This document shows, one piece after another, positions 11,231 through 64,000 of a stretch of DNA of 64,000 nt. The first letter of the stretch is position 1. The number at the start of each line of letters is the position of its first letter. A model generated the notes under the pieces. That model made no database searches. It had not been told where the DNA came from and saw only the letters and a program-made list of their open reading frames with translations. The DNA comes from Crossaster papposus (Eukaryota; Echinodermata; Asteroidea; Velatida; Solasteridae): assembly GCA_037893245.1 (NCBI GenBank), contig JBAIAA010000099.1:620001-684000 (forward strand), in the 5' to 3' direction. The position numbers and the translations under genes were made by a program.

Positions 11231-11258
11231 ATTAATAATAATAATAATAATAATAATT
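11231..11258. repeat. (AAT)n microsatellite, one per array-I unit
   Basis: A run of about eight AAT units. The same run recurs near 13687-13713, 16145-16174, 19187-19212 and 23171-23198. It creates poly-Asn shadow ORFs on the plus strand. It is missing from the exon-less duplicate segment near 20170. Confidence 0.85.
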
Positions 11259-24396: not shown

Positions 24397-25746
24397 TTAA
24401 GACTCATCAAAGCGCACATGAATTTGTTGCTACATGTAGTTTTTGTTTTCTTTTTTGTATATAAGAAATGAATTTCAACTTATTTGCGTTCAAAAATAAA
24501 CATGAGTTGTGGCTTGTTTATTCGAGGAAGCTGTATGGCAATATACTGACAATTTAGTTTTTCTTGTTAGATGCGTTTCCGTGTTGTTTGCATTTTATTT
24601 ACGTCATGTGTTTGGTTTTATTTGCAATAATTGTTCCTTGTGCTTTGTTACCCCATGATTAAAATTACAGCATGTACCCTGTATCTAGAAGAATATTAGG
24701 TAAAGTTGGAAAAGTTATGATGATAAAGTTTGAAATAAAAACATCATTTTTCGCTACAGCCTTGTGATCGTTTGCACTGGTCTTTATGTTTTTCTCTTTA
24801 TTTCTGCTAATGTTCGGACCCTGTCAAATTAAAAACTCAACAAAAATCTTTCTAAGAAACAAAAGCTTAACAATATCAGGGGGTCATTATAAAATTAACC
24901 AAAACAACTTGTTCTTTTCATGTGGATTTTATCCAGAGGTCCTTTTCTTGTTCTGTTTTATAAAATAGTGGCGTGGTGGCAGCGTCGGAAACGTTTCCAA
25001 GCATTTTTAGCTCAAAATGTCAGTGGGCGGTGGCCAGGAACTGCTTTAGATTGCATCACAAAGCAACTACAGAATCTAACGTTTCCTGAGGCCCTTAAGC
25101 GGCCCAGGTAAACACGCCGTAATGGCTTCGCGCTGTGCGCTCACAGTGAACCCCCCTTTAACAAATTTCGTTTGGCATGCCGCAGTGTTCACCATGATTC
25201 AACAAATCTCGGAAAATCCTAATAAGTTAGATTTAATAATTTATTAACAAATTCTGATAAACCACACCAGCAGTTTATTTAAAAATTCTACGCTATAGGC
25301 TCTTCAAACGTTTGTCAAGATATGGAATCATCAACTGTACGGTTGTAATTTCTGTAGTAATTATAAATATGTTACTCTCCGATCTGGACACAAGAAAGGA
25401 GTTTTCATCTATGGGGTTACTATTGGAAACAAGGTTGAAAATAAAGTAAGCGCTGGGGACAAGGTTGGGGTTAAACTTTTTGTTTGTTTTTTAAATAATA
25501 GTAATATCAAATGGAATATCGAACGAATTTTGATACATGTCAGGCCTCTAAAATATTGTACAATACCAACTGAATTAACCATCGAGCCCAATAAAAGAAC
25601 AACAGCGAACAGACTTTATAGGACCCAAAGTGGCTGGGCATGTTTCATCGGCCGTTTGAAACTACCCGCAAGTCGTGCTCTTGACCAAGAGGAATAACTG
25701 AAGTGTCCCAAGTATTTATGAATAATGGTTTCAGATATGCTCATAC

Positions 25747-26004
25747 CTAACACATCAAGCGTGAAGTTACTGGAGGCTGTACAATTGGCAGAATTAGTCG
25801 CGGTGCATGTCACTGTATGCAATCCTACTCCAAAGGTTCCACCAGTGGTCGTTACATCGGTTCCATCCCCAGAATCACTACAAGAGATGCTTCCTCCGTC
25901 AGCATTGTCGGCAGTTACAATCGGCCAAGTTACTAAGGCCGTGGATGCATCGGCATCTGGGCACACGGGACTCACCATTGACGGTACGTTTACAACTGGT
26001 ATCG
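25747..26004 (-). CDS. HYR domain exon II-1
   Basis: The 258-nt phase 1-1 exon lies between acceptor TTTTTTACACAG and donor TTAG|GTATGAG. Its 85 full codons hold cysteines at 14, 41, 66 and 74, Trp26 in LVTWP, GGTFGVGLHTVTC (54-66) and closing FTLDVL. This is a standard HYR domain of about 82 residues plus a short linker, IPVVNVPS. N-glycosylation sequons occur at N73 (NCT) and N79 (NFT). HYR domains are extracellular adhesion modules. This is the last copy of the array in transcript order. V50 is GTA here; most units have GTG. Confidence 0.9.
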
Positions 26005-26080
26005 CTGTGTAAAAAAGGACAATTATTCGGTATCAAGTCAGTTTTAGTTTTAAAAACCATAACGCAACTAAACCATAGAA

Positions 26081-26220
26081 TGCCATGGTCCAGTGGTTAC
26101 GGCATTTGCTTTGTGAGTGATAGTGCTTGGGTTCGAACCTTGCCAGGACCATGGTGTTCGTGACCATAGGCAAGACACTTAACTACAATTGCCTCTCTAC
26201 CCAGAAGTATAAATAGGTAC
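26081..26220 (+). repeat. tRNA-derived SINE, one copy in each array-II unit
   Basis: The first copy is given. The others start 77 bp above each exon's upper edge and run about 140 bp, for example 27164, 40156, 53147 and 63971 (the last cut by the window). Box A is tggtccagtgg (26086-26096) and box B is ggttcgaacc (26130-26139), so an internal Pol III promoter is present. The head and its partner ccaggaccatgg can pair as an acceptor-like stem. The tail caagacacttaactacaatt ... tataaataggtac resembles conserved SINE core domains of invertebrates. It is on the plus strand, antisense to the HYR gene, and has been copied with the unit. Confidence 0.75.
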
Positions 26221-26257
26221 ATAATTTTTTAATATGGCGAACTTGCCGCACCATAAT

Positions 26258-26301
26258 GGGCAAACCTGCCCCAACAGCATATGTGTGGGGTAAGTTTGCC
26301 C
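26258..26301. repeat. Imperfect 16-bp hairpin in array-II intron
   Basis: gggcaaacctgcccca pairs with tggggtaagtttgccc at 14 of 16 positions around a loop of 12 bases. It recurs in every unit just after the SINE. Confidence 0.7.
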
Positions 26302-26829
26302 ACTTGTCTTTATGTGTTAATTTTAAGTTTCATTGCTCCGAAAATTAGTTATCTTGGTTTGAGTCAAAGATTCATTTTTCATTGTTATAAAATTAAATAC
26401 GGTTTAACAAATTTAACAAATTTCTAATCCAAAAATACTTCCAAAACTTTGGCAAACTTGGCAAACAGCAAAATGGCGGCTGGCATGTGATCCTGAATGG
26501 ACCAGTGATAATTTGGCTCTCCACTATAAATATGTATGGGGTAAGGTAATATCAAATGCAATATCCATTGACTTTTGATACATGTCAGGTTAAAAAAAAG
26601 AGACTACATTTAGATGTGAACCTGTGTCCTCTAAAATATTGTACAATACCAACTGAATTAACCATCGAGCCCAATAAAAGAACAACAGCGAACAGACTTT
26701 ATAGGACCCAAAGTGGCTGGGCATGTTTCATCGGCCGTTTGAAACTACCCGCAAGTCGTGCTCTTGACCAAGAGGAATAACTGAAGTGTCTCAAGTATTT
26801 ATGAATAATGGTTTCAGATATGCTCATAC

Positions 26830-27087
26830 CTAACACATCAAGCGTGAAGTTACTGGAGGCTGTACAATTGGCAGAATTAGTCGCGGTGCATGTCACTGTA
26901 TGCAATCCTACTCCAAAGGTTCCACCAGTGGTCGTCACATCGGTTCCATCCCCAGAATCACTACAAGAGATGCTTCCTCCGTCAGCATTGTCGGCAGTTA
27001 CAATCGGCCAAGTTACTAAGGCCGTGGATGCATCGGCATCTGGGCACACGGGACTCACCATTGACGGTACGTTTACAACTGGTATCG
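26830..27087 (-). CDS. HYR domain exon II-2
   Basis: Consensus protein. Its left flank shares the tgtctcaag variant with unit 3. Confidence 0.88.
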
Positions 27088-27912
27088 CTGTGTAAAAAAG
27101 GACAATTATTCGGTATCAATTCAGTTTTAGTTTTAAAAACCATAACGCAACTAAACCATAGAATGCCATGGTCCAGTGGTTACGGCATTTGCCTCGTGAG
27201 TGATAGTGCTTGGGTTCGAACCCTGCCAGGACCATGGTGTTCGTGACCATAGGCAAGACACTTAACTACAATTGCCTCTCTACCCAGAAGTATAAATAGG
27301 TACATAATATTTGAATATGGCGAACTTGCCGCACCATAATGGGCAAACCTGCCCCAACAGCATATGTGTGGGGTAAGTTTGCCCACTTGTCTTTATGTGT
27401 TAATTTTAAGTTTCATTGCTCCGAAAATTAGTTATCTTGGTTTGAGTCAAAGATTCATTTTTCATTGTTATAAAATTAAATACGGTTTAACAAATTTAAC
27501 AAATTTCTAATCCAAAAATACTTCCAAAACTTTGGCAAACTTGGCAAACAGCAAAATGGCGGCTGGCATGTGATCCTGAATGGACCAGTGATAATTTGGC
27601 TCTCCACTATAAATATGTATGGGGTAAGGTAATATCAAATGCAATATCCATTGACTTTTGATACATGTCAGGTTAAAAAAAAGAGACTACATTTAGATGT
27701 GAACCTGTGTCCTCTAAAATATTGTACAATACCAACTGAATTAACCATCGAGCCCAATAAAAGAACAACAGCGAACAGACTTTATAGGACCCAAAGTGGC
27801 TGGGCATGTTTCATCGGCCGTTTGAAACTACCCGCAAGTCGTGCTCTTGACCAAGAGGAATAACTGAAGTGTCTCAAGTATTTATGAATAATGGTTTCAG
27901 ATATGCTCATAC

Positions 27913-28170
27913 CTAACACATCAAGCGTGAAGTTACTGGAGGCTGTACAATTGGCAGAATTAGTCGCGGTGCATGTCACTGTATGCAATCCTACTCCAAA
28001 GGTTCCACCAGTGGTCGTCACATCGGTTCCATCCCCAGAATCACTACAAGAGATGCTTCCTCCGTCAGCATTGTCGGCAGTTACAATCGGCCAAGTTACT
28101 AAGGCCGTGGATGCATCGGCATCTGGGCACACGGGACTCACCATTGACGGTACGTTTACAACTGGTATCG
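27913..28170 (-). CDS. HYR domain exon II-3
   Basis: Consensus protein; a near copy of unit 2 including the left flank, so a recent duplicate. Confidence 0.88.
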
Positions 28171-28994
28171 CTGTGTAAAAAAGGACAATTATTCGGTATC
28201 AATTCAGTTTTAGTTTTAAAAACCATAACGCAACTAAACCATAGAATGCCATGGTCCAGTGGTTACGGCATTTGCCTCGTGAGTGATAGTGCTTGGGTTC
28301 GAACCCTGCCAGGACCATGGTGTTCGTGACCATAGGCAAGACACTTAACTACAATTGCCTCTCTACTCAGAAGTATAAATAGGTACATAATATTTGAATA
28401 TGGCGAACTTGCCGCACCATAATGGGCAAACCTGCCCCAACAGCATAGGTTTGGGGTAAGTTTGCCCACTTGTCTTTATGTGTTAATTTTAAGTTCCATT
28501 GCCCCGAAATTAGTTATCTTGGTTTGAGTCAAAGATTCAATTTTCATTGTTATAAAATTACATACGGTTTAACAAATTTAACAAAATTCTAATCCAAAAA
28601 TACTTCCAAAACTTTGGCAAACTTGGCAAACAGCAAAATGGCGGCTGGCATGTGATCCTGAATGGACCAGTGATAATTTGGCTCTCCACTATAAATATGT
28701 AAGGGGTAAGGTAATATCAAATGCAATATCCATTGACTTTTGATACATGTCAGGTTAAAAAAAAGAGACTACATTTAGATGTGAACCTGTGTCCTCTAAA
28801 ATATTGTACAATACCAACTGAATTAACCATCGAGCCCAATAAAAGAACAACAGCGAACAGACTTTATAGGACCCAAAGTGGCTGGGCATGTTTCATCGGC
28901 CGTTTGAAACTACCCGCAAGTCGTGCTCTTGACCAAGAGGAATAACTGAAGTGTCCCAAGTATTTATGAATAATGGTTTCAGATATGCTCATAC

Positions 28995-29252
28995 CTAACA
29001 CATCAAGCGTGAAGTTACTGGAGGCTGTACAATTGGCAGAATTAGTCGCGGTGCATGTCACTGTATGCAATCCTACTCCAAAGGTTCCACCAGTGGTCGT
29101 TACATCGGTTCCATCCCCAGAATCACTACAAGAGATGCTTCCTCCGTCAGCATTGTCGGCAGTTACAATCGGCCAAGTTACTAAGGCCGTGGATGCATCG
29201 GCATCTGGGCACACGGGACTCACCATTGACGGTACGTTTACAACTGGTATCG
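28995..29252 (-). CDS. HYR domain exon II-4
   Basis: Consensus protein, with the V50 GTA codon as in unit 1. Confidence 0.88.
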
Positions 29253-30076
29253 CTGTGTAAAAAAGGACAATTATTCGGTATCAAGTCAGTTTTAGTTTAA
29301 AAAACCATAACGCAACTAAACCATAGAATGCCATGGTCCAGTGGTTACGGCATTTGCCTCATGAGTGATAGTGCTTGGGTTCGAACCCTGCCAGGACCAT
29401 GGTGTTCGTGACCATAGGCCAGACACTTAACTACAATTGCCTCTCTACCCAGAAGTATAAATAGGTACATAATTTTTGAATATGGCGAATTTGCCGCAAC
29501 ATAATGGGCAAACCTGCCCCAACAGCATAGGTTTGGGGTAAGTTTGCCCACTTGTCTTTATGTGTTAATTTTAAGTTCCATTGCCCCGAAATTAGTTATC
29601 TTGGTTTGAGTCAAAGATTCAATTTTCATTGTTATAAAATTAAATACGGTTTAACAAATTTAACAAATTTCTAATCCAAAAATACTTCCAAAACTTTGGC
29701 AAACTTGGCAAACAGCAAAATGGCGGCTGGCATGTGATCCTGAATGGACCAGTGATAATTTGGCTCTCCACTATATATATGTATGGGGTAAGGTAATATC
29801 AAATGCAATATCCATTGACTTTTGATACATGTCAGGTTAAAAAAAAGAGACTACATTTAGATGTGAACCTGTGTCCTCTAAAATATTGTACAATACCAAC
29901 TGAATTAACCATCGAGCCCAATAAAAGAACAACAGCGAACAGACTTTATAGGACCCAAAGTGGCTGGGCATGTTTCATCGGCCGTTTGAAACTACCCACA
30001 AGTCGTGCTCTTGACCAAGAGGAATAACTGAAGTGTCCCAAGTATTTATGAATATTTGTTTCAGATATGCTCATAC

Positions 30077-30334
30077 CTAACACATCAAGCGTGAAGTTAC
30101 TGGAGGCTGTACAATTGGCAGAATTAGTCGCGGTGCATGTCACTGTATGCAATCCTACTCCAAAGGTTCCACCAGTGGTCGTCACATCGGTTCCATCCCC
30201 AGAATCACTACAAGAGATGCTTCCTCCGTCAGCATTGTCGGCAGTTACAATCGGCCAAGTTACTAAGGCCGTGGATGCATCGGCATCTGGGCACACGGGA
30301 CTCACCATTGACGGTACGTTTACAACTGGTATCG
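30077..30334 (-). CDS. HYR domain exon II-5
   Basis: Consensus protein in a class N unit (tgaatatttgtttcag next to the donor). Confidence 0.88.
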
Positions 30335-31158
30335 CTGTGTAAAAAAGGACAATTATTCGGTATCAAGTCAGTTTTAGTTTCAAAAACCATAACGCAACTA
30401 AACCATAGAATGCCATGGTCCAGTGGTTACGGCATTTGCCTCGTGAGTGATAGTGCTTGGGTTCAAACCCTGCCAGGACCATGGTGTTCATGACCATAGG
30501 CAAGACACTTAACTACAATTGCCTCTCTACCCAGAAGTATAAATAGGTACATAATTTTTGAATATGGCGAACTTGCCGCACCATAATGGGCAAACCTGCC
30601 CCAACAGCATATGTGTGGGGTAAGTTTGCCCACTTGTCTTTATGTGTTAATTTTAAGTTTCATTGCTCCGAAATTAGTTATCTTTGTTTGAGTCAAAGAT
30701 TCATTTTTCATTGTTATAAAATTAAATACGGTTTAACAAATTTAACAAATTTCTAATCCAAAAATACTTCCAAAACTTTGGCAAACTTGGCAAACAGCAA
30801 AATGGCGGCTGGCATGTGATCCTGAATGGACCAGTGATAATTTGGCTCTCCACTATATATATGTATGGGGTAAGGTAATATCAAATGCAATATCCATTGA
30901 CTTTTGATACATGTCAGGTTAAAAAAAAGAGACTACATTTAGATGTGAACCTGTGTCCTCTAAAATATTGTACAATACCAACTGAATTAACCATCGAGCC
31001 CAATAAAAGAACAACAGCGAACAGACTTTATAGGACCCAAAGTGGCTGGGCATGTTTCATCGGCCGTTTGAAACTACCCACAAGTCGTGCTCTTGACCAA
31101 GAGGAATAACTGAAGTGTCCCAAGTATTTATGAATATTTGTTTCAGATATGCTCATAC

Positions 31159-31416
31159 CTAACACATCAAGCGTGAAGTTACTGGAGGCTGTACAATTGG
31201 CAGAATTAGTCGCGGTGCATGTCACTGTATGCAATCCTACTCCAAAGGTTCCACCAGTGGTCGTCACATCGGTTCCATCCCCAGAATCACTACAAGAGAT
31301 GCTTCCTCCGTCAGCATTGTCGGCAGTTACAATCGGCCAAGTTACTAAGGCCGTGGATGCATCGGCATCTGGGCACACGGGACTCACCATTGACGGTACG
31401 TTTACAACTGGTATCG
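31159..31416 (-). CDS. HYR domain exon II-6
   Basis: Consensus protein; class N, almost identical to unit 5. Confidence 0.88.
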
Positions 31417-32240
31417 CTGTGTAAAAAAGGACAATTATTCGGTATCAAGTCAGTTTTAGTTTCAAAAACCATAACTCAACTAAACCATAGAATGCCATGG
31501 TCCAGTGGTTACGGCATTTGCCTCGTGAGTGATAGTGCTTGGGTTCGAACCCTGCCAGGACCATGGTGTTCGTGACCATAGGCAAGACGCTTAACTACAA
31601 TTGCCTCTCTACCCAGAAGTATAAATAGGTACATAATTTTTGAATATGGCGAACTTGCCGCACCATAATGGGCAAACCTGCCCCAACAGCATAGGTTTGG
31701 GGTAAGTTTGCCCACTTGTCTTTATGTGTTAATTTTAAGTTTCATTGCTCCGAAATTAGTTATCTTTGTTTGAGTCAAAGATTCATTTTTCATTGTTATA
31801 AAATTAAATACGGTTTAACAAATTTAACAAATTTCTAATCCAAAAATACTTCCAAAACTTTGGCAAACTTGGCAAACAGCAAAATGGCGGCTGGCATGTG
31901 ATCCTGAATGGACCAGTGATAAATTGGCTCTCCACTATAAATATGTATGGGGTAAGGTAATATCAATTGCAATATCCATTGACTTTTGATACATGTCAGG
32001 TTAAAAAAAAGAGACTACATTTAGATGTGAACCTGTGTCCTCTAAAATATTGTACAATACCAACTGAATTAATCATCGAGCCCAATAAAAAAACAACAGC
32101 GAACAGACTTTATAGGACCCAAAGTGGCTGGGCATGTTTCATCGGCCATTTGAAACTACCCGCAAGTCGTGCTCTTGACCAAGAGGAATAACTGAAGTGT
32201 CCCAAGTATTTATGAATAATGGTTTCAGATATGCTCATAC

Positions 32241-32498
32241 CTAACACATCAAGCGTGAAGTTACTGGAGGCTGTACAATTGGCAGAATTAGTCGCGGTGC
32301 ATGTCACTGTATGCAATCCTACTCCAAAGGTTCCACCAGTGGTCGTCACATCGGTTCCATCCCCAGAATCACTACAAGAGATGCTTCCTCCGTCAGCATT
32401 GTCGGCAGTTACAATCGGCCAAGTTACTAAGGCCGTGGATGCATCGGCATCTGGGCACACGGGACTCACCATTGACGGTACGTTTACAACTGGTATCG
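32241..32498 (-). CDS. HYR domain exon II-7
   Basis: Consensus protein. Its left flank carries the ggccatttg variant, shared with units 8, 14 and 15. Confidence 0.88.
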
Positions 32499-33324
32499 CT
32501 GTGTAAAAAAGGACAATTATTCGGTATCAAGTCAGTTTTAGTTTCAAAAACCATAACGCAACTAAACCATAGAATGCCATGGTCCAGTGGTTACGGCAAT
32601 TTGCTTTGTGAGTGATAGTGCTTGGGTTCGAACCTTGCCAGGACCATGGTGTTCGTGACCATAGGCAAGACACTTAACTACAATTGCCTCTCTACCCAGA
32701 AGTATAAATAGATACATAATTTTTGAATATGGCGAACTTGCCGCACCATAATGGGCAAACCTGCCCCAACAGCATAGGTGTGGGGTAAGTTTGCCCACTT
32801 GTCTTTATGTATTAATTTTAAGTTTCATTGCTCCGAAAATTAGTTATCTTTGTTCGAGTCAAAGATTCATTTTTCATTGTTATAAAATTAAATACGGTTT
32901 AACAAATTGAACGAATTTCTAATCCAAAAATACTTCCAAAACTTTGGCAAACTTGGCAAACAGCAAAATGGCGGCTGGCATGTGATCCTGAATGGACCAG
33001 TGATAATTTGGCTCTCCACTATAAATATGTATGGGGTAAGGTAATATCAAATGCAATATCCATTGACTTTTGATACATGTCAGGTTAAAAAAAAGAGACT
33101 ACATTTAGATGTGAACCTGTGTCCTCTAAAATATTGTACAATACCAACTGAATTAACCATCGAGCCCAATAAAAAAAAAACAGCGAACAGACTTTATAGG
33201 ACCCAAAGTGGCTGGGCATGTTTCATCGGCCATTTGAAACTACCCGCAAGTCGTGCTCTTGACCAAGAGGAATAACTGAAGTGTCCCAAGTATTTATAAA
33301 TAATGGTTTCAGATATGGTCATAC

Positions 33325-33582
33325 CTAACACATCAAGCGTGAAGTTACTGGAGGCTGTACAATTGGCAGAATTAGTCGCGGTGCATGTCACTGTATGCAA
33401 TCCTACTCCAAAGGTTCCACCAGTGGTCGTCACATCGGTTCCATCCCCAGAATCACTACAAGAGATGCTTCCTCCGTCAGCATTGTCGGCAGTTACAATC
33501 GGCCAAGTTACTAAGGCCGTGGATGCATCGGCATCTGGGCACACGGGACTCACCATCGACGGTACGTTTACAACTGGTATCG
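33325..33582 (-). CDS. HYR domain exon II-8
   Basis: Consensus protein. S8 is TCG (TCA elsewhere, except unit 16). The donor reads TTAG|GTATGACC, one base off the usual form but still a good site. Confidence 0.88.
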
Positions 33583-34406
33583 CTGTGTAAAAAAGGACTA
33601 TTATTCGGTATCAAGTCAGTTTTAGTTTCAAAAACCATAACGCAACTAAACTATAGAATGCCATGGTCCAGTGGTTACGGCATTTGCCTCATGAGTGATA
33701 GTGCTTGGGTTCGAACCCTGCCAGGACCATGGTGTTCGTGACCATAGGCCAGACACTTAACTACAATTGCCTCTCTACCCAGAAGTATAAATAGGTACAT
33801 AATTTTTGAATATGGCGAATTTGCCGCAACATAATGGGCAAACCTGCCCCAACAGCATAGGTTTGGGGTAAGTTTGCCCACTTGTCTTTATGTGTTAATT
33901 TTAAGTTCCATTGCCCCGAAATTAGTTATCTTGGTTTGAGTCAAAGATTCAATTTTCATTGTTATAAAATTAAATACGGTTTAACAAATTTAACAAAATT
34001 CTAATCCAAAAATACTTCCAAAACTTTGGCAAACTTGGCAAACAGCAAAATGGCGGCTGGCATGTGATCCTGAATGGACCAGTGATAATTTGGCTCTCCA
34101 CTATATATATGTATGGGGTAAGGTAATATCAAATGCAATATCCATTGACTTTTGATACATGTCAGGTTAAAAAAAAGAGACTACATTTAGATGTGAACCT
34201 GTGTCCTCTAAAATATTGTACAATACCAACTGAATTAACCATCGAGCCCAATAAAAGAACAACAGCGAACAGACTTTATAGGACCCAAAGTGGCTGGGCA
34301 TGTTTCATCGGCCGTTTGAAACTACCCACAAGTCGTGCTCTTGACCAAGAGGAATAACTGAAGTGTCCCAAGTATTTATGAATATTTGTTTCAGATATGC
34401 TCATAC

Positions 34407-34664
34407 CTAACACATCAAGCGTGAAGTTACTGGAGGCTGTACAATTGGCAGAATTAGTCGCGGTGCATGTCACTGTATGCAATCCTACTCCAAAGGTTCC
34501 ACCAGTGGTCGTCACATCGGTTCCATCCCCAGAATCACTACAAGAGATGCTTCCTCCGTCAGCATTGTCGGCAGTTACAATCGGCCAAGTTACTAAGGCC
34601 GTGGATGCATCGGCATCTGGGCACACGGGACTCACCATTAACGGTACGTTTACAACTGGTATCG
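34407..34664 (-). CDS. HYR domain exon II-9 (S8L)
   Basis: Linker residue S8 is Leu (TTA), a change shared only with unit 20, eleven units away. Class N. Confidence 0.88.
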
Positions 34665-35489
34665 CTGTGTAAAAAAGGACAATTATTCGGTATCAATTCA
34701 GTTTTAGTTTCAAAAACCATAACGCAACTAAACCATAGAATGCCATGGTCCAGTGGTTACGGCATTTGCCTCGTGAGTGATAGTGCTTGGGTTCGAACCT
34801 TGCCAGGACCATGGTGTTCGTGACCATAGGCAAGACACTTAACTACAATTGCCTCTCTACCCAGAAGTATAAATAGGTACATAATTTTTGAATATGGCGA
34901 ACTTGCCGCACCATAATGGGCAAACCTGCCCCAACAGCATAGGTGTGGGGTAAGTTTGCCCACTTGTCTTTATGTATTAATTTTAAGTTTCATTGCTCCG
35001 AAAATTAGTTATCTTTGTTCGAGTCAAAGATTCATTTTTCATTGTTATAAAATTAAATACGGTTTAACAAATTTAACAAAATTCTAATCCAAAAATACTT
35101 CCAAAACTTTGGCAAACTTGGCCAACAGCAAAATGGCGGCTGGCATGTGATCCTGAATGGACCAGTGATAATTTGGCTCTCCACTATATATATGTATGGG
35201 GTAAGGTAATATCAAATGCAATATCCATTGACTTTTGATACATGTCAGGTTAAAAAAAAGAGACTACATTTAGATGTGAACCTGTGTCCTCTAAAATATT
35301 GTACAATACCAACTGAATTAACCATCGAGCCCAATAAAAAAACAACAGCGAACAGACTTTATAGGACCCAAAGTGGCTGGGCATGTTTCATCGGCCGTTT
35401 GAAACTACCCACAAGTCGTGCTCTTGACCAAGATGAATAACTGAAGTGTCCCAAGTATTTATGAATATTTGTTTCAGATATGCTCATAC

Positions 35490-35747
35490 CTAACACATCA
35501 AGCGTGAAGTTACTGGAGGCTGTACAATTGGCAGAATTAGTCGCGGTGCATGTCACTGTATGCAATCCTACTCCAAAGGTTCCACCAGTGGTCGTCACAT
35601 CGGTTCCATCCCCAGAATCACTACAAGAGATGCTTCCTCCGTCAGCATTGTCGGCAGTTACAATCGGCCAAGTTACTAAGGCCGTGGATGCATCGGCATC
35701 TGGGCACACGGGACTCACCATTGACGGTACGTTTACAACTGGTATCG
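35490..35747 (-). CDS. HYR domain exon II-10
   Basis: Consensus protein; class N with the ccaagatgaata variant shared with units 12 and 21. Confidence 0.88.
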
Positions 35748-51729: not shown

Positions 51730-51987
51730 CTAACACATCAAGCGTGAAGTTACTGGAGGCTGTACAATTGGCAGAATTAGTCGCGGTGCATGTCACTGTA
51801 TGCAATCCTACTCCAAAGGTTCCACCAGTGGTCGTTACATCGGTTCCATCCCCAGAATCACTACAAGAGATGCTTCCTCCGTCAGCATTGTCGGCAGTTA
51901 CAATCGGCCAAGTTACTAAGGCCGTGGATGCATCGGCATCTGGGCACACTGGACTCACCATTGACGGTACGTTTACAACTGGTATCG
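51730..51987 (-). CDS. HYR domain exon II-25
   Basis: Consensus protein; class B, P12 CCA and V50 GTA. Confidence 0.88.
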
Positions 51988-52812
51988 CTGTGTAAAAAAG
52001 GACAATTATTCGGTATCAAGTCAGTCTTAGTTTCAAAAACCATAACGCAACTAAACCATAGAATGCCATGGTCCAGTGGTTACGGCATTTGCCTCGTGAG
52101 TGATAGTGCTTGGGTTCGAACCCTGCCAGGACCATGGTGTTCGTGACCATAGGCAAGACACTTAACTACAATTGCCTCTCTACCCAGAAGTATAAATAGG
52201 TACATAATTTTTGAATATGGCGAACTTGCCGCACCATAATGGGCAAACCTGCCCCAACAGCATAGGTTTGGGGTAAGTTTGCCCACTTGTCTTTATGTGT
52301 TAATTTTAAGTTTCATTGCTCCGAAAATTAGTTATCTTTGTTCGAGTCAAAGATTCATTTTTCATTGTTATAAAATTAAATACGGTTTAACAAATTTAAC
52401 AAATTTCTAATCCAAAAATACTTCCAAAACTTGGGCAAACTTTGCAAACAGCAAAATGGCGGCTGGCATGTGATCCTGAATGGACCAGTAATAATTTGGC
52501 TCTCCACTATAAATATGTAAGGGGTAAGGTAATATCAAATGCAATATCCATTGACTTTTGATACATGTCAGGTTAAAAAAAAGAGACTACATTGAGATGT
52601 GAACCTGTGTCCTCTAAAATATTGTACAATACCAACTGAATTAACCATCGAGCCCAATAAAAGAACAACAGCGAACAGACTTTATAGGACCCAAAGTGGC
52701 TGGGCATGTTTCATCGGCCGTTTGAAACTACACGCAAGTCGTGCTCTTGACCAAGAGGAATAACTGAAGTGTCCCAAGTATTTATGAATAATGGTTTCAG
52801 ATATGCTCATAC

Positions 52813-53070
52813 CTAACACATCAAGCGTGAAGTTACTGGAGGCTGTACAATTGGCAGAATTAGTCGCGGTGCATGTCACTGTATGCAATCCTACTCCAAA
52901 GGTTCCACCAGTGGTCGTCACATCGGTTCCATCCCCAGAATCACTACAAGAGATGCTTCCTCCGTCAGCATTGTCGGCAGTTACAATCGGCCAAGTTACT
53001 AAGGCCGTGGATGCATCGGCATCTGGGCACACGGGACTCACCATTGACGGTACGTTTACAACTGGTATCG
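52813..53070 (-). CDS. HYR domain exon II-26
   Basis: Consensus protein; class A. Confidence 0.88.
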
Positions 53071-53894
53071 CTGTGTAAAAAAGGACAATTATTCGGTATC
53101 AAGTCAGTTTTAGTTTTAAAAACCATAACGCAACTAAACCATAGAATGCCATGGTCCAGTGGTTACGGCATTTGCCTCGTGAGTGATAGTGCTTGGGTTC
53201 GAACCCTGCCAGGACCATGGTGTTCGTGACCATAGGCAAGACGCTTAACTACAATTGCCTCTCTACCCAGAAGTATAAATAGGTACATAATATTTGAATA
53301 TGGCGAACTTGCCGCACCATAATGGGCAAACCTGCCCCAACAGCATAGGTTTGGGGTAAGTTTGCCCACTTGTCTTTATGTGTTAATTTTAAGTTTCATT
53401 GCCCCGAAATTAGTTATCTTGGTTTGAGTCAAAGATTCAATTTTCATTGTTATAAAATTAAATACGGTTTAACAAATTTAACAAAATTCTAATCCAAAAA
53501 TATTTCCAAAACTTTGGCAAACTTGGCAAACAGCAAAATGGCGGCTGGCATGTGATCCTGAATGGACCAGTGGTAATTTGGCTCTCCACTATAAATATGT
53601 ATGGGGTAAGGTAATATCAAATGCAATATCCATTGACTTTCGATACATGTCAGGTTAAAAAAAAGAGACTACATTTAGATGTGAACCTGTGTCCTCTAAA
53701 ATATTGTACAATACCAACTGAATTAACCATCGAGCCCAAAAAAAAAACAACAGCGAACAGACTTTAAAGGACTTAAATTGGCTGGGTATGTTTCATCAAC
53801 CGTTTAAAACTACCCGCCAGTCGTGCTCTTGACCAATAGGAATAACTGAAGTGTCTCAAGTATTTATGAATAATGGTTTCATATATGCTCATAC

Positions 53895-54152
53895 CTAACA
53901 CATCAAGCGTGAAGTTACTGGAGGCTGTACAATTGGCAGAATTAGTCGCGGTGCATGTCACTGTATGCAATCCTACTCCAAAGGTTCCACCAGTGGTCGT
54001 TACATCGGTTCCATCCCCAGAATCACTACAAGAGATGCTTCCTCCGTCAGCATTGTCGGCAGTTACAATCGGCCAAGTTACTAAGGCCGTGGATGCATCG
54101 GCATCTGGGCACACTGGACTCACCATTGACGGTACGTTTACAACTGGTATCG
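53895..54152 (-). CDS. HYR domain exon II-27
   Basis: Consensus protein; class B, P12 CCA and V50 GTA as in unit 25. Confidence 0.88.
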
Positions 54153-54977
54153 CTGTGTAAAAAAGGACAATTATTCGGTATCAAGTCAGTTTTAGTTTCA
54201 AAAACCATAACGCAACTAAACCATAGAATGCCATGGTCCAGTGGTTACGGCATTTGCCTCGTGAGTGATAGTGCTTGGGTTCGAACCCTGCCAGGACCAT
54301 GGTGTTCGTGACCATAGGCAAGACACTTAACTACAATTGCCTCTCTACCCAGAAGTATAAATAGGTACATAATTTTTGAATATGGCGAACTTGCCGCACC
54401 ATAATGGGCAAACCTGCCCCAACAGCATAGGTTTGGGGTAAGTTTGCCCACTTGTCTTTATGTGTTAATTTTAAGTTTCATTGCTCCGAAAATTAGTTAT
54501 CTTTGTTCGAGTCAAAGATTCATTTTTCATTGTTATAAAATTAAATACGGTTTAACAAATTTAACAAATTTCTAATCCAAAAATACTTCCAAAACTTGGG
54601 CAAACTTGGCAAACAGCAAAATGGCGGCTGGCATGTGATCCTGAATGGACCAGTAATAATTTGGCTCTCCACTATAAATATGTAAGGGGTAAGGTAATAT
54701 CAAATGCAATATCCATTGACTTTTGATACATGTCAGGTTAAAAAAAAGAGACTACATTTAGATGTGAACCTGTGTCCTCTAAAATATTGTACAATACCAA
54801 CTGAATTAACCATCGAGCCCAATAAAAGAACAACAGCGAACAGACTTTATAGGACCCAAAGTGGCTGGGCATGTTTCATCGGCCGTTTGAAACTACACGC
54901 AAGTCGTGCTCTTGACCAAGAGGAATAACTGAAGTGTCCCAAGTATTTATGAATAATGGTTTCAGATATGCTCATAC

Positions 54978-55235
54978 CTAACACATCAAGCGTGAAGTTA
55001 CTGGAGGCTGTACAATTGGCAGAATTAGTCGCGGTGCATGTCACTGTATGCAATCCTACTCCAAAGGTTCCACCAGTGGTCGTTACATCGGTTCCATCCC
55101 CAGAATCACTACAAGAGATGCTTCCTCCGTCAGCATTGTCGGCAGTAACAATCGGCCAAGTTACTAAGGCCGTGGATGCATCGGCATCTGGGCACACGGG
55201 ACTCACCATTGACGGTACGTTTACAACTGGTATCG
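54978..55235 (-). CDS. HYR domain exon II-28
   Basis: Consensus protein; class A. V29 is GTT (shared with units 30 and 35) and V50 is GTA. The SINE has cagtggctacgg. Confidence 0.88.
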
Positions 55236-56059
55236 CTGTGTAAAAAAGGACAATTATTCGGTATCAATTCAGTTTTAGTTTTAAAAACCATAACGCAACT
55301 AAACCATAGAATGCCATGGTCCAGTGGCTACGGCATTTGCCTCGTGAGTGATAGTGCTTGGGTTCGAACCCTGCCAGGACCATGGTGTTCGTGACCATAG
55401 GCAAGACACTTAACTACAATTGCCTCTCTACCCAGAAGTATAAATAGGTACATAATATTTGAATATGGCGAACTTGCCGCACCATAATGGGCAAACCTGC
55501 CCCAACAGCATAGGTTTGGGGTAAGTTTGCCCACTTGTCTTTATGTGTTAATTTTAAGTTTCATTGCCCCGAAATTAGTTATCTTGGTTTGAGTCAAAGA
55601 TTCAATTTTCATTGTTATAAAATTAAATACGGTTTAACAAATTTAACAAAATTCTAATCCAAAAATATTTCCAAAACTTTGGCAAACTTGGCAAACAGCA
55701 AAATGGCGGCTGGCATGTGATCCTGAATGGACCAGTGGTAATTTGGCTCTCCACTATAAATATGTATGGGGTAAGGTAATATCAAATGCAATATCCATTG
55801 ACTTTCGATACATGTCAGGTTAAAAAAAAAAGACTACATTTAGATGTGAACCTGTGTCCTCTAAAATATTGTACAATATCAACTGAATTAACCATCGAGT
55901 CCAATAAAAGAACAACAGCGAACAGACTTTAAAGGACTTAAATTGGCTGGGTATGTTTCATCAACCGTTTAAAACTACCCGCCAGTCGTGCTCTTGACCA
56001 ATAGGAATAACTGAAGTGTCTCAAGTATTTATGAATAATGGTTTCATATATGCTCATAC

Positions 56060-56317
56060 CTAACACATCAAGCGTGAAGTTACTGGAGGCTGTACAATTG
56101 GCAGAATTAGTCGCGGTGCATGTCACTGTATGCAATCCTACTCCAAAGGTTCCACCAGTGGTCGTCACATCGGTTCCATCCCCAGAATCACTACAAGAGA
56201 TGCTTCCTCCGTCAGCATTGTCGGCAGTTACAATCGGCCAAGTTACTAAGGCCGTGGATGCATCGGCATCTGGGCACACGGGACTCACCATTGACGGTAC
56301 GTTTACAACTGGTATCG
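56060..56317 (-). CDS. HYR domain exon II-29
   Basis: Consensus protein; class B. Confidence 0.88.
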
Positions 56318-57141
56318 CTGTGTAAAAAAGGACAATTATTCGGTATCAAGTCAGTTTTAGTTTCAAAAACCATAACGCAACTAAACCATAGAATGCCATG
56401 GTCCAGTGGTTACGGCATTTGCCTCGTGAGTGATAGTGCTTGGGTTCGAACCCTGCCAGGACCATGGTGTTCGTGACCATAGGCAAGACGCTTAACTACA
56501 ATTGCCTCTCTACCCAGAAGTATAAATAGGTACATAATATTTGAATATGGCGAACTTGCCGCACCATAATGGGCAAACCTGCCCCAACAGCATAGGTTTG
56601 GGGTAAGTTTGCCCACTTGTCTTTATGTGTTAATTTTAAGTTTCATTGCCCCGAAATTAGTTATCTTGGTTTGAGTCAAAGATTCAATTTTCATTGTTAT
56701 AAAATTAAATACGGTTTAACAAATTTAACAAAATTCTAATCCAAAAATATTTCCAAAACTTTGGCAAACTTGGCAAACAGCAAAATGGCGGCTGGCATGT
56801 GATCCTGAATGGACCAGTGGTAATTTGGCTCTCCACTATAAATATGTATGGGGTAAGGTAATATCAAATGCAATATCCATTGACTTTCGATACATGTCAG
56901 GTTAAAAAAAAGAGACTACATTTAGATGTGAACCTGTGTCCTCTAAAATATTGTACAATACCAACTGAATTAACCATCGAGCCCAAAAAAAAAACAACAG
57001 CGAACAGACTTTAAAGGACTTAAATTGGCTGGGTATGTTTCATCAACCGTTTAAAACTACCCGCCAGTCGTGCTCTTGACCAATAGGAATAACTGAAGTG
57101 TCTCAAGTATTTATGAATAATGGTTTCATATATGCTCATAC

Positions 57142-57399
57142 CTAACACATCAAGCGTGAAGTTACTGGAGGCTGTACAATTGGCAGAATTAGTCGCGGTG
57201 CATGTCACTGTATGCAATCCTACTCCAAAGGTTCCACCAGTGGTCGTCACATCGGTTCCATCCCCAGAATCACTACAAGAGATGCTTCCTCCGTCAGCAT
57301 TGTCGGCAGTAACAATCGGCCAAGTTACTAAGGCCGTGGATGCATCGGCATCTGGGCACACGGGACTCACCATTGACGGTACGTTTACAACTGGTATCG
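57142..57399 (-). CDS. HYR domain exon II-30
   Basis: Consensus protein; class B, V29 GTT, with the cagtggctacgg SINE variant. Confidence 0.88.
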
Positions 57400-58224
57400 C
57401 TGTGTAAAAAAGGACAATTATTCGGTATCAATTCAGTTTTAGTTTTAAAAACCATAACGCAACTAAACCATAGAATGCCATGGTCCAGTGGCTACGGCAT
57501 TTGCCTCGTGAGTGATAGTGCTTGGGTTCGAACCCTGCCAGGACCATGGTGTTCGTGACCATAGGCAAGACACTTAACTACAATTGCCTCTCTACCCAGA
57601 AGTATAAATAGGTACATAATTTTTGAATATGGCGAACTTGCCGCACCATAATGGGCAAACCTGCCCCAACAGCATAGGTTTGGGGTAAGTTTGCCCACTT
57701 GTCTTTATGTGTTAATTTTAAGTTTCAATGCTCCGAAAATTAGTTATCTTTGTTCGAGTCAAAGATTCATTTTTCATTGTTATAAAATTAAATACGGTTT
57801 AACAAATTTAACACATTTCTAATCCAAAAATACTTCCAAAACTTGGGCAAACTTGGCAAACAGCAAAATGGCGGCTGGCATGTGATCCTGAATGGACCAG
57901 TGATAATTTGGCTCTCCACTATAAATATGTAAGGGGTAAGGTAATATCAAATGCAATATCCATTGACTTTTGATACATGTCAGGTTAAAAAAAAGAGACT
58001 ACATTTAGATGTGAACCTGTGTCCTCTAAAATATTGTACAATACCAACTGAATTAACCATCGAGCCCAATAAAAGAACAACAGCGAACAGACTTTATAGG
58101 ACCCAAAGTGGCTGGGCATGTTTCATCGGCCGTTTGAAACTACACGCAAGTCGTGCTCTTGACCAAGAGGAATAACTGAAGTGTCCCAAGTATTTATGAA
58201 TAATGGTTTCAGATATGCTCATAC

Positions 58225-58482
58225 CTAACACATCAAGCGTAAAGTTACTGGAGGCTGTACAATTGGCAGAATTAGTCGCGGTGCATGTCACTGTATGCAA
58301 TCCTACTCCAAAGGTTCCACCAGTGGTCGTCACATCGGTTCCATCCCCAGAATCACTACAAGAGATGCTTCCTCCGTCAGCATTGTCGGCAGTTACAATC
58401 GGCCAAGTTACTAAGGCCGTGGATGCATCGGCATCTGGGCACACGGGACTCACCATTGACGGTACGTTTACAACTGGTATCG
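58225..58482 (-). CDS. HYR domain exon II-31
   Basis: Consensus protein; class A. F80 is TTT, private. The spacer has aattagtcgg, shared only with unit 36. Confidence 0.88.
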
Positions 58483-59306
58483 CTGTGTAAAAAAGGACAA
58501 TTAGTCGGTATCAATTCAGTTTTAGTTTTAAAAACCATAACGCAACTAAACCATAGAATGCCATGGTCCAGTGGCTACGGCATTTGCCTCGTGAGTGATA
58601 GTGCTTGGGTTCGAACCCTGCCAGGACCATGGTGTTCGTGACCATAGGCAAGACACTTAACTACAATTGCCTCTCTACCCAGAAGTATAAATAGGTACAT
58701 AATATTTGAATATGGCGAACTTGCCGCACCATAATGGGCAAACCTGCCCCAACAGCATAGGTTTGGGGTAAGTTTGCCCACTTGTCTTTATGTGTTAATT
58801 TTAAGTTTCATTGCCCCGAAATTAGTTATCTTGGTTTGAGTCAAAGATTCAATTTTCATTGTTATAAAATTAAATACGGTTTAACAAATTTAACAAAATT
58901 CTAATCCAAAAATATTTCCAAAACTTTGGCAAACTTGGCAAACAGCAAAATGGCGGCTGGCATGTGATCCTGAATGGACCAGTGGTAATTTGGCTCTCCA
59001 CTATAAATATGTATGGGGTAAGGTAATATCAAATGCAATATCCATTGACTTTCGATACATGTCAGGTTAAAAAAAAAAGACTACATTTAGATGTGAACCT
59101 GTGTCCTCTAAAATATTGTACAATACCAACTGAATTAACCATCGAGTCCAATAAAAGAACAACAGCGAACAGACTTTAAAGGACTTAAATTGGCTGGGTA
59201 TGTTTCATCAACCGTTTAAAACTACCCGCCAGTCGTGCTCTTGACCAATAGGAATAACTGAAGTGTCTCAAGTATTTATGAATAATGGTTTCATATATGC
59301 TCATAC

Positions 59307-59564
59307 CTAACACATCAAGCGTGAAGTTACTGGAGGCTGTACAATTGGCAGAATTAGTCGCGGTGCATGTCACTGTATGCAATCCTACTCCAAAGGTTCC
59401 ACCAGTGGTCGTCACATCGGTTCCATCCCCAGAATCACTACAAGAGATGCTTCCTCCGTCAGCATTGTCGGCAGTTACAATCGGCCAAGTTACTAAGGCC
59501 GTGGATGCATCGGCATCTGGGCACACGGGACTCACCATTGACGGTACGTTTACAACTGGTATCG
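59307..59564 (-). CDS. HYR domain exon II-32
   Basis: Consensus protein; class B. Confidence 0.88.
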
Positions 59565-60388
59565 CTGTGTAAAAAAGGACAATTATTCGGTATCAAGTCA
59601 GTTTTAGTTTCAAAAACCATAACGCAACTAAACCATAGAATGCCATGGTCCAGTGGTTACGGCATTTGCCTCGTGAGTGATAGTGCTTGGGTTCGAACCC
59701 TGCCAGGACCATGGTGTTCGTGACCATAGGCAAGACGCTTAACTACAATTGCCTCTCTACCCAGAAGTATAAATAGGTACATAATATTTGAATATGGCGA
59801 ACTTGCCGCACCATAATGGGCAAACCTGCCCCAACAGCATAGGTTTGGGGTAAGTTTGCCCACTTGTCTTTATGTGTTAATTTTAAGTTTCATTGCCCCG
59901 AAATTAGTTATCTTGGTTTGAGTCAAAGATTCAATTTTCATTGTTATAAAATTAAATACGGTTTAACAAATTTAACAAAATTCTAATCCAAAAATATTTC
60001 CAAAACTTTGGCAAACTTGGCAAACAGCAAAATGGCGGCTGGCATGTGATCCTGAATGGACCAGTGGTAATTTGGCTCTCCACTATAAATATGTATGGGG
60101 TAAGGTAATATCAAATGCAATATCCATTGACTTTCGATACATGTCAGGTTAAAAAAAAGAGACTACATTTAGATGTGAACCTGTGTCCTCTAAAATATTG
60201 TACAATACCAACTGAATTAACCATCGAGCCCAAAAAAAAAAAAACAGCGAACAGACTTTAAAGGACTTAAATTGGCTGGGTATGTTTCATCAACCGTTTA
60301 AAACTACCCGCCAGTCGTGCTCTTGACCAATAGGAATAACTGAAGTGTCTCAAGTATTTATGAATAATGGTTTCATATATGCTCATAC

Positions 60389-60646
60389 CTAACACATCAA
60401 GCGTGAAGTTACTGGAGGCTGTACAATTGGCAGAATTAGTCGCGGTGCATGTCACTGTATGCAATCCTACTCCAAAGGTTCCACCAGTGGTCGTCACATC
60501 GGTTCCATCCCCAGAATCACTACAAGAGATGCTTCCTCCGTCAGCATTGTCGGCAGTTACAATCGGCCAAGTTACTAAGGCCATGGATGCATCGGCATCT
60601 GGGCACACTGGACTCACCATTGACGGTACGTTTACAACTGGTATCG
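60389..60646 (-). CDS. HYR domain exon II-33 (T21M)
   Basis: T21 is Met, private to this unit. Class B, P12 CCA. Confidence 0.88.
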
Positions 60647-61471
60647 CTGTGTAAAAAAGGACAATTATTCGGTATCAAGTCAGTTTTAGTTTCAAAAACC
60701 ATAACGCAACTAAACCATAGAATGCCATGGTCCAGTGGTTACGGCATTTGCCTCGTGAGTGATAGTGCTTGGGTTCGAACCCTGCCAGGACCATGGTGTT
60801 CGTGACCATAGGCAAGACACTTAACTACAATTGCCTCTCTACCCAGAAGTATAAATAGGTACATAATTTTTGAATATGGCGAACTTGCCGCACCATAATG
60901 GGCAAACCTGCCCCAACAGCATAGGTTTGGGGTAAGTTTGCCCACTTGTCTTTATGTGTTAATTTTAAGTTTCATTGCTCCGAAAATTAGTTATCTTTGT
61001 TCGAGTCAAAGATTCATTTTTCATTGTTATAAAATTAAATACGGTTTAACAAATTTAACAAATTTCTAATCCAAAAATACTTCCAAAACTTGGGCAAACT
61101 TGGCAAACAGCAAAATGGCGGCTGGCATGTGATCCTGAATGGACCAGTAATAATTTGGCTCTCCACTATAAATATGTAAGGGGTAAGGTAATATCAAATG
61201 CAATATCCATTGACTTTTGATACATGTCAGGTTAAAAAAAAGAGACTACATTTAGATGTGAACCTGTGTCCTCTAAAATATTGTACAATACCAACTGAAT
61301 TAACCATCGAGCCCAATAAAAGAACAACAGCGAACAGACTTTATAGGACCCAAAGTGGCTGGGCATGTTTCATCGGCCGTTTGAAACTACACGCAAGTCG
61401 TGCTCTTGACCAAGAGGAATAACTGAAGTGTCCCAAGTATTTATGAATAATGGTTTCAGATATGCTCATAC

Positions 61472-61729
61472 CTAACACATCAAGCGTGAAGTTACTGGAG
61501 GCTGTACAATTGGCAGAATTAGTCGCGGTGCATGTCACTGTATGCAATCCTACTCCAAAGGTTCCACCAGTGGTCGTTACATCGGTTCCATCCCCAGAAT
61601 CACTACAAGAGATGCTTCCTCCGTCAGCATTGTCGGCAGTTACAATCGGCCAAGTTACTAAGGCCGTGGATGCATCGGCATCTGGGCACACGGGACTCAC
61701 CATTGACGGTACGTTTACAACTGGTATCG
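61472..61729 (-). CDS. HYR domain exon II-34
   Basis: Consensus protein; class A, V50 GTA. Confidence 0.88.
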
Positions 61730-62553
61730 CTGTGTAAAAAAGGACAATTATTCGGTATCAAGTCAGTTTTAGTTTTAAAAACCATAACGCAACTAAACCA
61801 TAGAATGCCATGGTCCAGTGGTTACGGCATTTGCCTCGTGAGTGATAGTGCTTGGGTTCGAACCCTGCCAGGACCATGGTGTTCGTGACCATAGGCAAGA
61901 CACTTAACTACAATTGCCTCTCTACCCAGAAGTATAAATAGGTACATAATATTTGAATATGGCGAACTTGCCGCACCATAATGGGCAAACCTGCCCCAAC
62001 AGCATAGGTTTGGGGTAAGTTTGCCCACTTGTCTTTATGTGTTAATTTTAAGTTTCATTGCCCCGAAATTAGTTATCTTGGTTTGAGTCAAAGATTCAAT
62101 TTTCATTGTTATAAAATTAAATACGGTTTAACAAATTTAACAAAATTCTAATCCAAAAATATTTCCAAAACTTTGGCAAACTTGGCAAACAGCAAAATGG
62201 CGGCTGGCATGTGATCCTGAATGGACCAGTGGTAATTTGGCTCTCCACTATAAATATGTATGGGGTAAGGTAATATCAAATGCAATATCCATTGACTTTC
62301 GATACATGTCAGGTTAAAAAAAAAAGACTACATTTAGATGTGAACCTGTGTCCTCTAAAATATTGTACAATACCAACTGAATTAACCATCGAGTCCAATA
62401 AAAGAACAACAGCGAACAGACTTTAAAGGACTTAAATTGGCTGGGTATGTTTCATCAACCGTTTAAAACTACCCGCCAGTCGTGCTCTTGACCAATAGGA
62501 ATAACTGAAGTGTCTCAAGTATTTATGAATAATGGTTTCATATATGCTCATAC

Positions 62554-62811
62554 CTAACACATCAAGCGTGAAGTTACTGGAGGCTGTACAATTGGCAGAA
62601 TTAGTCGCGGTGCATGTCACTGTATGCAATCCTACTCCAAAGGTTCCACCAGTGGTCGTTACATCGGTTCCATCCCCAGAATCACTACAAGAGATGCTTC
62701 CTCCGTCAGCATTGTCGGCAGTAACAATCGGCCAAGTTACTAAGGCCGTGGATGCATCGGCATCTGGGCACACGGGACTCACCATTGACGGTACGTTTAC
62801 AACTGGTATCG
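62554..62811 (-). CDS. HYR domain exon II-35
   Basis: Consensus protein; class B, V29 GTT and V50 GTA. Confidence 0.88.
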
Positions 62812-63636
62812 CTGTGTAAAAAAGGACAATTATTCGGTATCAATTCAGTTTTAGTTTTAAAAACCATAACGCAACTAAACCATAGAATGCCATGGTCCAG
62901 TGGCTACGGCATTTGCCTCGTGAGTGATAGTGCTTGGGTTCGAACCCTGCCAGGACCATGGTGTTCGTGACCATAGGCAAGACACTTAACTACAATTGCC
63001 TCTCTACCCAGAAGTATAAATAGGTACATAATATTTGAATATGGCGAACTTGCCGCACCATAATGGGCAAACCTGCCCCAACAGCATAGGTTTGGGGTAA
63101 GTTTGCCCACTTGTCTTTATGTGTTAATTTTAAGTTTCAATGCTCCGAAAATTAGTTATCTTTGTTCGAGTCAAAGATTCATTTTTCATTGTTATAAAAT
63201 TAAATACGGTTTAACAAATTTAACACATTTCTAATCCAAAAATACTTCCAAAACTTGGGCAAACTTGGCAAACAGCAAAATGGCGGCTGGCATGTGATCC
63301 TGAATGGACCAGTGATAATTTGGCTCTCCACTATAAATATGTAAGGGGTAAGGTAATATCAAATGCAATATCCATTGACTTTTGATACATGTCAGGTTAA
63401 AAAAAAGAGACTACATTTAGATGTGAACCTGTGTCCTCTAAAATATTGTACAATACCAACTGAATTAACCATCGAGCCCAATAAAAGAACAACAGCGAAC
63501 AGACTTTATAGGACCCAAAGTGGCTGGGCATGTTTCATCGGCCGTTTGAAACTACACGCAAGTCGTGCTCTTGACCAAGAGGAATAACTGAAGTGTCCCA
63601 AGTATTTATGAATAATGGTTTCAGATATGCTCATAC

Positions 63637-63894
63637 CTAACACATCAAGCGTGAAGTTACTGGAGGCTGTACAATTGGCAGAATTAGTCGCGGTGCATGT
63701 CACTGTATGCAATCCTACTCCAAAGGTTCCACCAGTGGTCGTCACATCGGTTCCATCCCCAGAATCACTACAAGAGATGCTTCCTCCGTCAGCATTGTCG
63801 GCAGTTACAATCGGCCAAGTTACTAAGGCCGTGGATGCATCGGCATCTGGGCACACGGGACTCACCATTGACGGTACGTTTACAACTGGTATCG
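63637..63894 (-). CDS. HYR domain exon II-36
   Basis: Consensus protein; class A. It is the first HYR exon of the window in transcript order. The upstream SINE is cut by the window end, so more copies are expected to the right. Confidence 0.88.
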
Positions 63895-64000
63895 CTGTGT
63901 AAAAAAGGACAATTAGTCGGTATCAATTCAGTTTTAGTTTTAAAAACCATAACGCAACTAAACCATAGAATGCCATGGTCCAGTGGCTACGGCATTTGCC

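Follow-up and report, generated by a model that had tools for sequence, protein, structure and literature searches.

A homogenised array of 85 HYR exons in a probable extracellular-matrix gene of the sea star Crossaster papposus

A stretch of 64,000 nucleotides from the sea star Crossaster papposus (GenBank assembly GCA_037893245.1, contig JBAIAA010000099.1) contains a long tandem array in which a single HYR-type exon is repeated together with its intron, and the question raised by this locus is whether the exons are parts of one working gene or passengers of an expanding repeat. We refer to the whole stretch as the window and to its contig, which is 773,666 bp long, as C99; the window is C99:620001-684000, so that a window coordinate is the C99 coordinate minus 620000, and the assembly searched comprises 1.02 Gb in 1,841 contigs. 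An earlier reading of the window (the original prediction) had described 36 units carrying nearly the same HYR exon inside a single gene. We think it probable that the array forms the repetitive central part of a single, very large gene on the minus strand, and that this gene encodes a secreted, multi-domain protein of the echinoderm's extracellular matrix.

An array of 85 frame-neutral exons

The array is defined by the following features (window coordinates).

25501..64000, minus strand: window part of the tandem array, 36 units of 1,082-1,085 bp with one exon each, running on to C99:737392
25747..26004, minus strand: the 3'-most of the 85 HYR exons, 258 nt, phase 1-1, encoding 85 residues at 25748-26002 plus a split codon; the remaining window exons follow at 1,082-1,085-bp steps
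26060..26200, plus strand: motifs like the A and B boxes of tRNA genes in the unit intron, recognized by eye; no match in tRNA or Rfam searches

The exon anchor occurred 36 times in the window at spacings of 1082-1085 bp, in agreement with the predicted number of units, and the predicted start of the array at 25497 was about right (partial match from 25501, full unit match from 25545). As anticipated, the array continues past the window, to 2.4 times the part seen there: the entire array on C99 comprises 85 units at 645501-737392, about 92 kb, with both flanks contained in the contig and zero N. Spacing over the 85 copies was 1081-1085 bp with a single exception of 986 bp, which is due to a 96-bp intron deletion. 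All 85 exons have the predicted length of 258 nt and phase 1-1, are flanked by AG and GT, and are free of stop codons; 81 of the 85 acceptors are identical over 20 nt, so the splice sites are conserved. The modules had been called identical, which holds for 63 of the 85 encoded 85-residue segments; the other 22 represent 13 further forms (14 protein forms overall), each one or two residues off the commonest. No tRNA was found in the unit intron by ARAGORN on 25500-29000, and no known RNA by Rfam (E 0.1) on 25400-28000.

The repeated module is a divergent HYR domain

HYR domains have an immunoglobulin-like beta-sandwich fold and are contained in sea urchin hyalin. The HYR identity proposed for the array exon holds at the profile level: with Pfam HYR (PF02494; cut-off, 21.7 bits), three joined modules scored 37.5 bits over three stretches and a single module scored 18.1 bits. 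The array module is a divergent HYR domain, a member of the family when modules are scored jointly. A PDB search with the module gave no match at E 1. In its commonest form the module has 86 residues and a pI of 4.05, with 8 Asp, 4 Cys, and two Asn-X-Ser/Thr sites, and it lacks Lys, Arg, Glu, Gln, and Tyr. The 4 Cys and at least two Asn-X-Ser/Thr sites are kept in all 85 modules, and the 85 segments together (7,225 residues, split codons omitted) contain no Lys, a single Arg, and a single Glu. Spliced together, 85 modules would give 7,310 residues, about 714 kDa without sugars.

Units are homogenised, and the exon varies less than the intron

For comparison, 84 units were cut anchor to anchor. 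Their mean pairwise divergence was 2.06% (maximum, 4.3%), and there were 77 distinct sequences among them, so at the DNA level the units are not all identical. The variable sites fall into a small number of block types, arranged as a mosaic and recurring across the array. Divergence is nearly flat across lags 1-29 (1.7-2.25%), and exact repeats, the longest of 2,433 bp, lie mostly whole unit numbers apart (1, 2, 5, 7, and more). Mosaic, flat lag divergence, and whole-unit exact repeats are the pattern expected from exchange and conversion. A higher-order repeat (dimer or trimer) was considered and rejected, as no fixed super-unit was seen, given the flat lag divergence and the varied unit distances between exact repeats.

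Diversity per site was 0.0064 in the exon versus 0.0248 in the intron, about four times lower, and sites with a common minor variant numbered 4 of 258 in the exon versus 52 of 829 in the intron (p 0.0018). Nonsynonymous diversity (piN) was 0.0030 and synonymous diversity (piS) 0.0166, a piN/piS ratio of 0.183 with a few codon pairs differing by two changes skipped; without the most variable codon, which holds one synonymous site, the ratio was 0.34 (0.21-0.57 by bootstrap over units, which are not independent). When intron-like variants were placed on the exon in a neutral simulation, a mean of 23 of the 85 exons was broken. Taken together, the diversity, piN/piS, variant-site, and simulation results moderately favor purifying selection on a translated exon.

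Further copies of the array in the assembly

The assembly contains 242 occurrences of an exact exon 50-mer (78 forward, 164 reverse), 80 of them on C99, and none of a control pattern. The array exon was also found on contigs C261, C310, and C709 (best 150 of 764 candidates scored), giving at least two further array places. C261 has its 5' flank in common with C99 (99.65% over 5,375 bp) and ends within the array after about 58 units, and C310 starts within the array, has about 24 units, and has the array junction and 3' flank in common with C99. Judging from sequence, C261 and C310 are probably the other haplotype, or else a second assembly of the same haplotype. The arrays of C709, C261, and C310 were read in part; in the polished stretches examined, 15 of 15 array exons were intact, a count that leaves out one pattern match judged to be a misfit in older-array sequence.

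The original prediction had held that unequal exchange could change the number of units, and the comparison of C310 with C99 supports this. Among 25 overlapping 600-base pieces (C310:13501-18900), 14 were identical to C99 at one offset and 8 at that offset plus 1,083, so identity is 600 of 600 on either side of the shift, and the three transition pieces between the two offsets matched at 595, 599, and 599 of 600. This amounts to a difference of exactly one unit, which fits unequal exchange, although an assembly slip is possible. C261 and C99 differ near the 5' end of the array by a shift of 1,082; this is less sure, as pieces matched at 895-899 of 900 and had close second matches. Each unit brings one symmetric phase 1-1 exon together with the splice sites that belong to it, so the reading frame is kept whenever unequal exchange adds or removes whole units. 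Such frame-neutral change, with conversion homogenising the units, finds support in the mosaic, in the exact repeats spaced by whole units, and in the difference of one unit between C99 and C310.

An apparent gap in the C261 array was considered as missing units and turned out to be a 5.8-kb insertion (positions 1252-7064 of the C261 stretch examined). It carries inverted repeats some 530 bp long (89%) and frames resembling reverse transcriptase, and among the best 20 matches listed it agrees with the C99 stretch at its array edges only. We take it to resemble a Penelope-type element.

The third array, on C709, reaches the contig end and has about 107 units by length. Its last 7 kb are 90-95% identical to one unit, with 5 of 5 exons found disrupted, whereas 9 of 9 exons were intact in two other C709 stretches, and we read the disrupted exons as unpolished sequence. 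C709 was rejected as an allele of C99, its flank matching at 97% over 1,501 bases versus 100% (rounded) for C310; it is more likely a paralogous locus.

HYR exons are abundant genome-wide (1,966 first-look candidates, of which 150 were scored) and form several arrays with other periods; the array described here was the largest of those encountered. Two exon arrays lie on C154, at 198064-227014 and 1385163-1405623. Their periods are close to 3.09 kb and to 1.23-1.55 kb, and the same contig has further HYR copies at 318, 352, and 386 kb, spaced by about 34 kb. At C261:2380747-2422884 there are at least 28 copies with about 82% identity to the HYR exon region at 747 kb on C99, many of them spaced by 0.85-1.17 kb; this looks like a second exon array within a gene.

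Exons on either side of the array

Exons on the same strand as the array were found on both sides of it. They are given here from upstream to downstream with respect to the minus strand, as exons or as open reading frames (ORFs) that hold them; coordinates without a contig are those of the window.

C99:756-769 kb, minus strand, upstream: six EGF-type ORFs (three kinds scanned, two over the Pfam cut-off and one under)
C99:747 kb, minus strand, upstream: canonical HYR exon (Pfam HYR 41.2 bits, cut-off 21.7)
C99:743 and 741 kb, minus strand, upstream of the array: two HYR-like exons (own profiles)
10006..25496, minus strand, downstream of the array: older array of related HYR-like exons, copies about 2.4-4.0 kb apart
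22476..22784, minus strand: ORF with HYR-like exon, phase 1-1
18491..18799, minus strand: ORF with HYR-like exon, phase 1-1 (exon part without Pfam match at E 0.01)
15450..15758, minus strand: ORF with HYR-like exon, phase 1-1
12992..13300, minus strand: ORF with HYR-like exon, phase 1-1
10546..10845, minus strand: ORF with HYR-like exon, phase 1-1 (Pfam HYR 21.3 bits, cut-off 21.7)
1403..1579, minus strand: ORF with EGF-like exon, phase 1-1 (Pfam EGF 26.2 bits, cut-off 21.5)
565..822, minus strand: ORF with the first part of a VWD domain (54.9 bits); the domain is split over C99:621 and 617 kb, the second exon scoring 55.5 bits
C99:617240 down to 608505, minus strand, downstream beyond the window: VWD end to Ser/Thr-rich ORFs
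C99:613 kb, minus strand: C8 domain (75.6 bits)
C99:612 kb, minus strand: TIL domain (42.2 bits)
Downstream of the array, minus strand: TILa domain (32.2 bits)
C99:610 and 608 kb, minus strand: two Ser/Thr-rich ORFs (one scanned)

The label HYR-like refers to our own profiles, of which the first found all such exons without including them and the second was built partly from them. VWD, C8, and TIL were found in this order on one strand; a third piece, which we read as the VWD end, had no Pfam match. By eye, the 9 EGF-type, 1 HYR, and 7 HYR-like exons examined are all phase 1-1 on the minus strand, and the VWD entry exon is able to start in phase 1. Exons of one strand and compatible phase on either side of the array suggest one secreted matrix gene, so that the single gene named in the original prediction fits what is found around it, as far as genomic sequence can tell.

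Beyond this set, nine more EGF-type ORFs lie at C99:590-599 kb (one sequence scanned: EGF_CA 38.1 bits); they are probably the start of a next gene copy, because relatives (93%) of the sequence around the 747-kb HYR exon lie at C99:556 and 503 kb. Within the older array, the HYR-like exon at 10546-10845 has 261 nt between equal motifs versus 270 in the other four, and its last strand differs as well. Two closely similar bodies of a non-LTR (non-long-terminal-repeat) retrotransposon, with endonuclease, reverse transcriptase, and RNase H-like frames recognized by eye, lie on the minus strand like the gene, at window 2690-6340 as one long frame and at C99:600390-607952 broken into several. A low-complexity Pro/Ser-rich repeat of about 2.7 kb lies between the VWD and C8 exons (C99:613123-615868), with several open frames on both strands. 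Elsewhere in the assembly, COX1-family matches without stops were seen at C8:5208663-5210009 and C8:2872001-2873343, the contig being at least 5.2 Mb long, and a match on C1841 has 13 internal TGA; contig C8 may be a bacterial genome within the assembly and C1841 the mitochondrion.

Weighing the explanations

Several observations weigh against a single gene with a selected, translated array. One module alone stays under the Pfam HYR cut-off (18.1 versus 21.7 bits), and a single-sequence fold model of one module was poor (mean pLDDT, the predicted local distance difference test, 52.3; two strands of at least 3 residues). Two flanking HYR-like exons were scanned with Pfam, one being without a match at E 0.01 and one just below the cut-off (21.3 bits); the scanned Ser/Thr-rich ORF had no Pfam match; and the upstream EGF exons could belong to a neighboring gene. 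The piN/piS ratio leans on a single synonymous site, and the distinct variants (15 nonsynonymous, 11 synonymous; p 0.045) show a weak shortage by simple count. Finally, zero broken exons occurred in 5% of neutral runs for stops and frameshifts, a figure somewhat too low because one alignment-edge column was counted as an intron indel, and in 36% for stops alone; intactness alone is therefore moderate evidence.

Those frequencies leave room for a satellite-like expansion of intron DNA that carried the exon along, with most units skipped or the gene copy silent and the exons intact because the expansion was recent and homogenised. Divergence of only 2.06% between units points the same way, as do the tRNA-like promoter motifs seen by eye in the intron. 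Such an expansion is nevertheless unlikely in our view, given an exon diversity of about one-quarter that of the intron, nonsynonymous diversity below synonymous, and AG/GT retained in 85 of 85 exons. Still less probable is that the array owes its size to the assembly, its unit number being wrong because of false joins between long reads inside the repeat. The end of C261 and the start of C310 fall within the array, the last 7 kb of C709 are noisy, with every exon found there disrupted, and the one-unit difference between C99 and C310 is flanked by exactly matching stretches, all of which would suit such an error; on the other side, the C99 array is enclosed by both of its flanks, the 84 units compared comprise 77 distinct sequences, and there are three separate places with about 24 + 58, 85, and about 107 units. 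A very short array, the artefact that the original prediction had named as its own possible undoing, is therefore unlikely, although the exact count is not thereby proven. In Dscam, array exons are chosen as alternatives, and long same-phase exon arrays exist in such genes; with 63 of 85 exons encoding one peptide, picking one or a few at a time would yield little diversity here, and we give this explanation very little credence.

We thus prefer the single matrix gene, in which the order of modules would be EGF, canonical HYR, HYR-like, 85 near-identical HYR, more HYR-like, EGF, VWD-C8-TIL, and a Ser/Thr-rich stretch. Every unit would be spliced into one mature message, and exchange and gene conversion would keep the units alike and alter their number, as in human LPA kringle IV type 2 (KIV-2), so that length would vary between animals. 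The product may be a long, strongly acidic, glycosylated gel or adhesive rod that possibly binds calcium and is held in place by VWD-type domains, a function suggested by its composition, by the HYR, EGF_CA, and VWD-C8-TIL modules, and by reports on hyalin and sea star adhesive proteins (PMC11212366, PMC9382459). It is possible, if rather doubtful, that this one gene yields a secreted polypeptide whose HYR part exceeds 7,000 residues, is almost free of Lys and Arg, strongly acidic, and furnished with about 170 predicted N-glycan sites; that an individual's two chromosomes encode different lengths of it; that unequal exchange alters this length rapidly; and that the length determines how thick or stiff an egg, larval, or adhesive matrix becomes. 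If so, trypsin-based proteomics would have missed an HYR polypeptide of more than 7,000 residues: because the module almost totally lacks Lys and Arg, ordinary tryptic proteomics would hardly see the protein, which may be a main component of an echinoderm matrix. With 85 frame-neutral exons, and a constrained exon beside freer introns in the same copies, exchange, conversion, and selection become measurable on one protein module.

Comparison with known systems

The human LPA gene is a well-studied coding repeat with introns in which unit number governs a blood trait. Its KIV-2 unit is 5.6 kb long with two exons, and alleles carry 1-40 units (PMC11462820). Both systems consist of near-identical units of whole exons and introns in what is, or here would be, one extracellular-protein gene, with a unit number that in LPA varies between alleles (PMC11462820); here, by contrast, the unit is about 1.08 kb with one exon, 85 units are complete and about 107 are present on C709, and the domain is another one. 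Near-identical, tandem, frame-neutral exons, as in a variable number tandem repeat of coding exons of the LPA type, were found in 85 of 85 units at 2.06% divergence, and the evidence for unit-number polymorphism is the one-unit difference between C99 and C310, seen in a single assembly and possibly an assembly slip.

Repeated HYR domains within an echinoderm gene are what hyalin would lead one to expect, and they are present here. A bindin-family match (E 9.5e-32) likewise indicates an echinoderm source, bindin being an echinoderm protein. One report gives 21 hyalin genes in the Strongylocentrotus purpuratus assembly (PMC11212366), another gives HYR domains in hyalin (PMC9382459), and hyalin is, as the product here would be, an echinoderm extracellular-matrix glycoprotein with HYR domains (PMC11212366, PMC9382459). 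The present locus differs in its homogenised 85-exon array adjoining EGF and VWD-C8-TIL exons, and the likeness described here is one of domain content. Among echinoderm adhesive proteins, Sfp1-like proteins have VWD-C8-TIL and Sfp5 has HYR (PMC9382459), and the egg-surface protein EBR1 has HYR, CUB, and TSP domains (PMC8403831); all of them are large, secreted, and built of several domains, among which are EGF, HYR, or VWD-C8-TIL modules, but a long homogenised HYR array is not mentioned for them in the available portions of those papers (PMC9382459, PMC8403831).

Similar in architecture are the 90-bp exon arrays of Tetrahymena leucine-rich repeat (LRR) genes, which share an intragenic unit of one exon and one intron, a fixed exon length, a strong phase bias, a proposed origin by unequal crossing over, and retrotransposons nearby (PMC6564038), and differ in belonging to a ciliate, in their 90-bp exons, phase 2 introns, and other domain, and in a peak near 10 exons in T. 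thermophila (PMC6564038). The literature searched, with most subscription journals outside its coverage, held no description of a comparable HYR exon array. In our judgment the array belongs to a known kind, the intron-bearing coding exon repeat, like LPA KIV-2 and the Tetrahymena LRR arrays, and what would set it apart is its size, its uniformity, and its composition.

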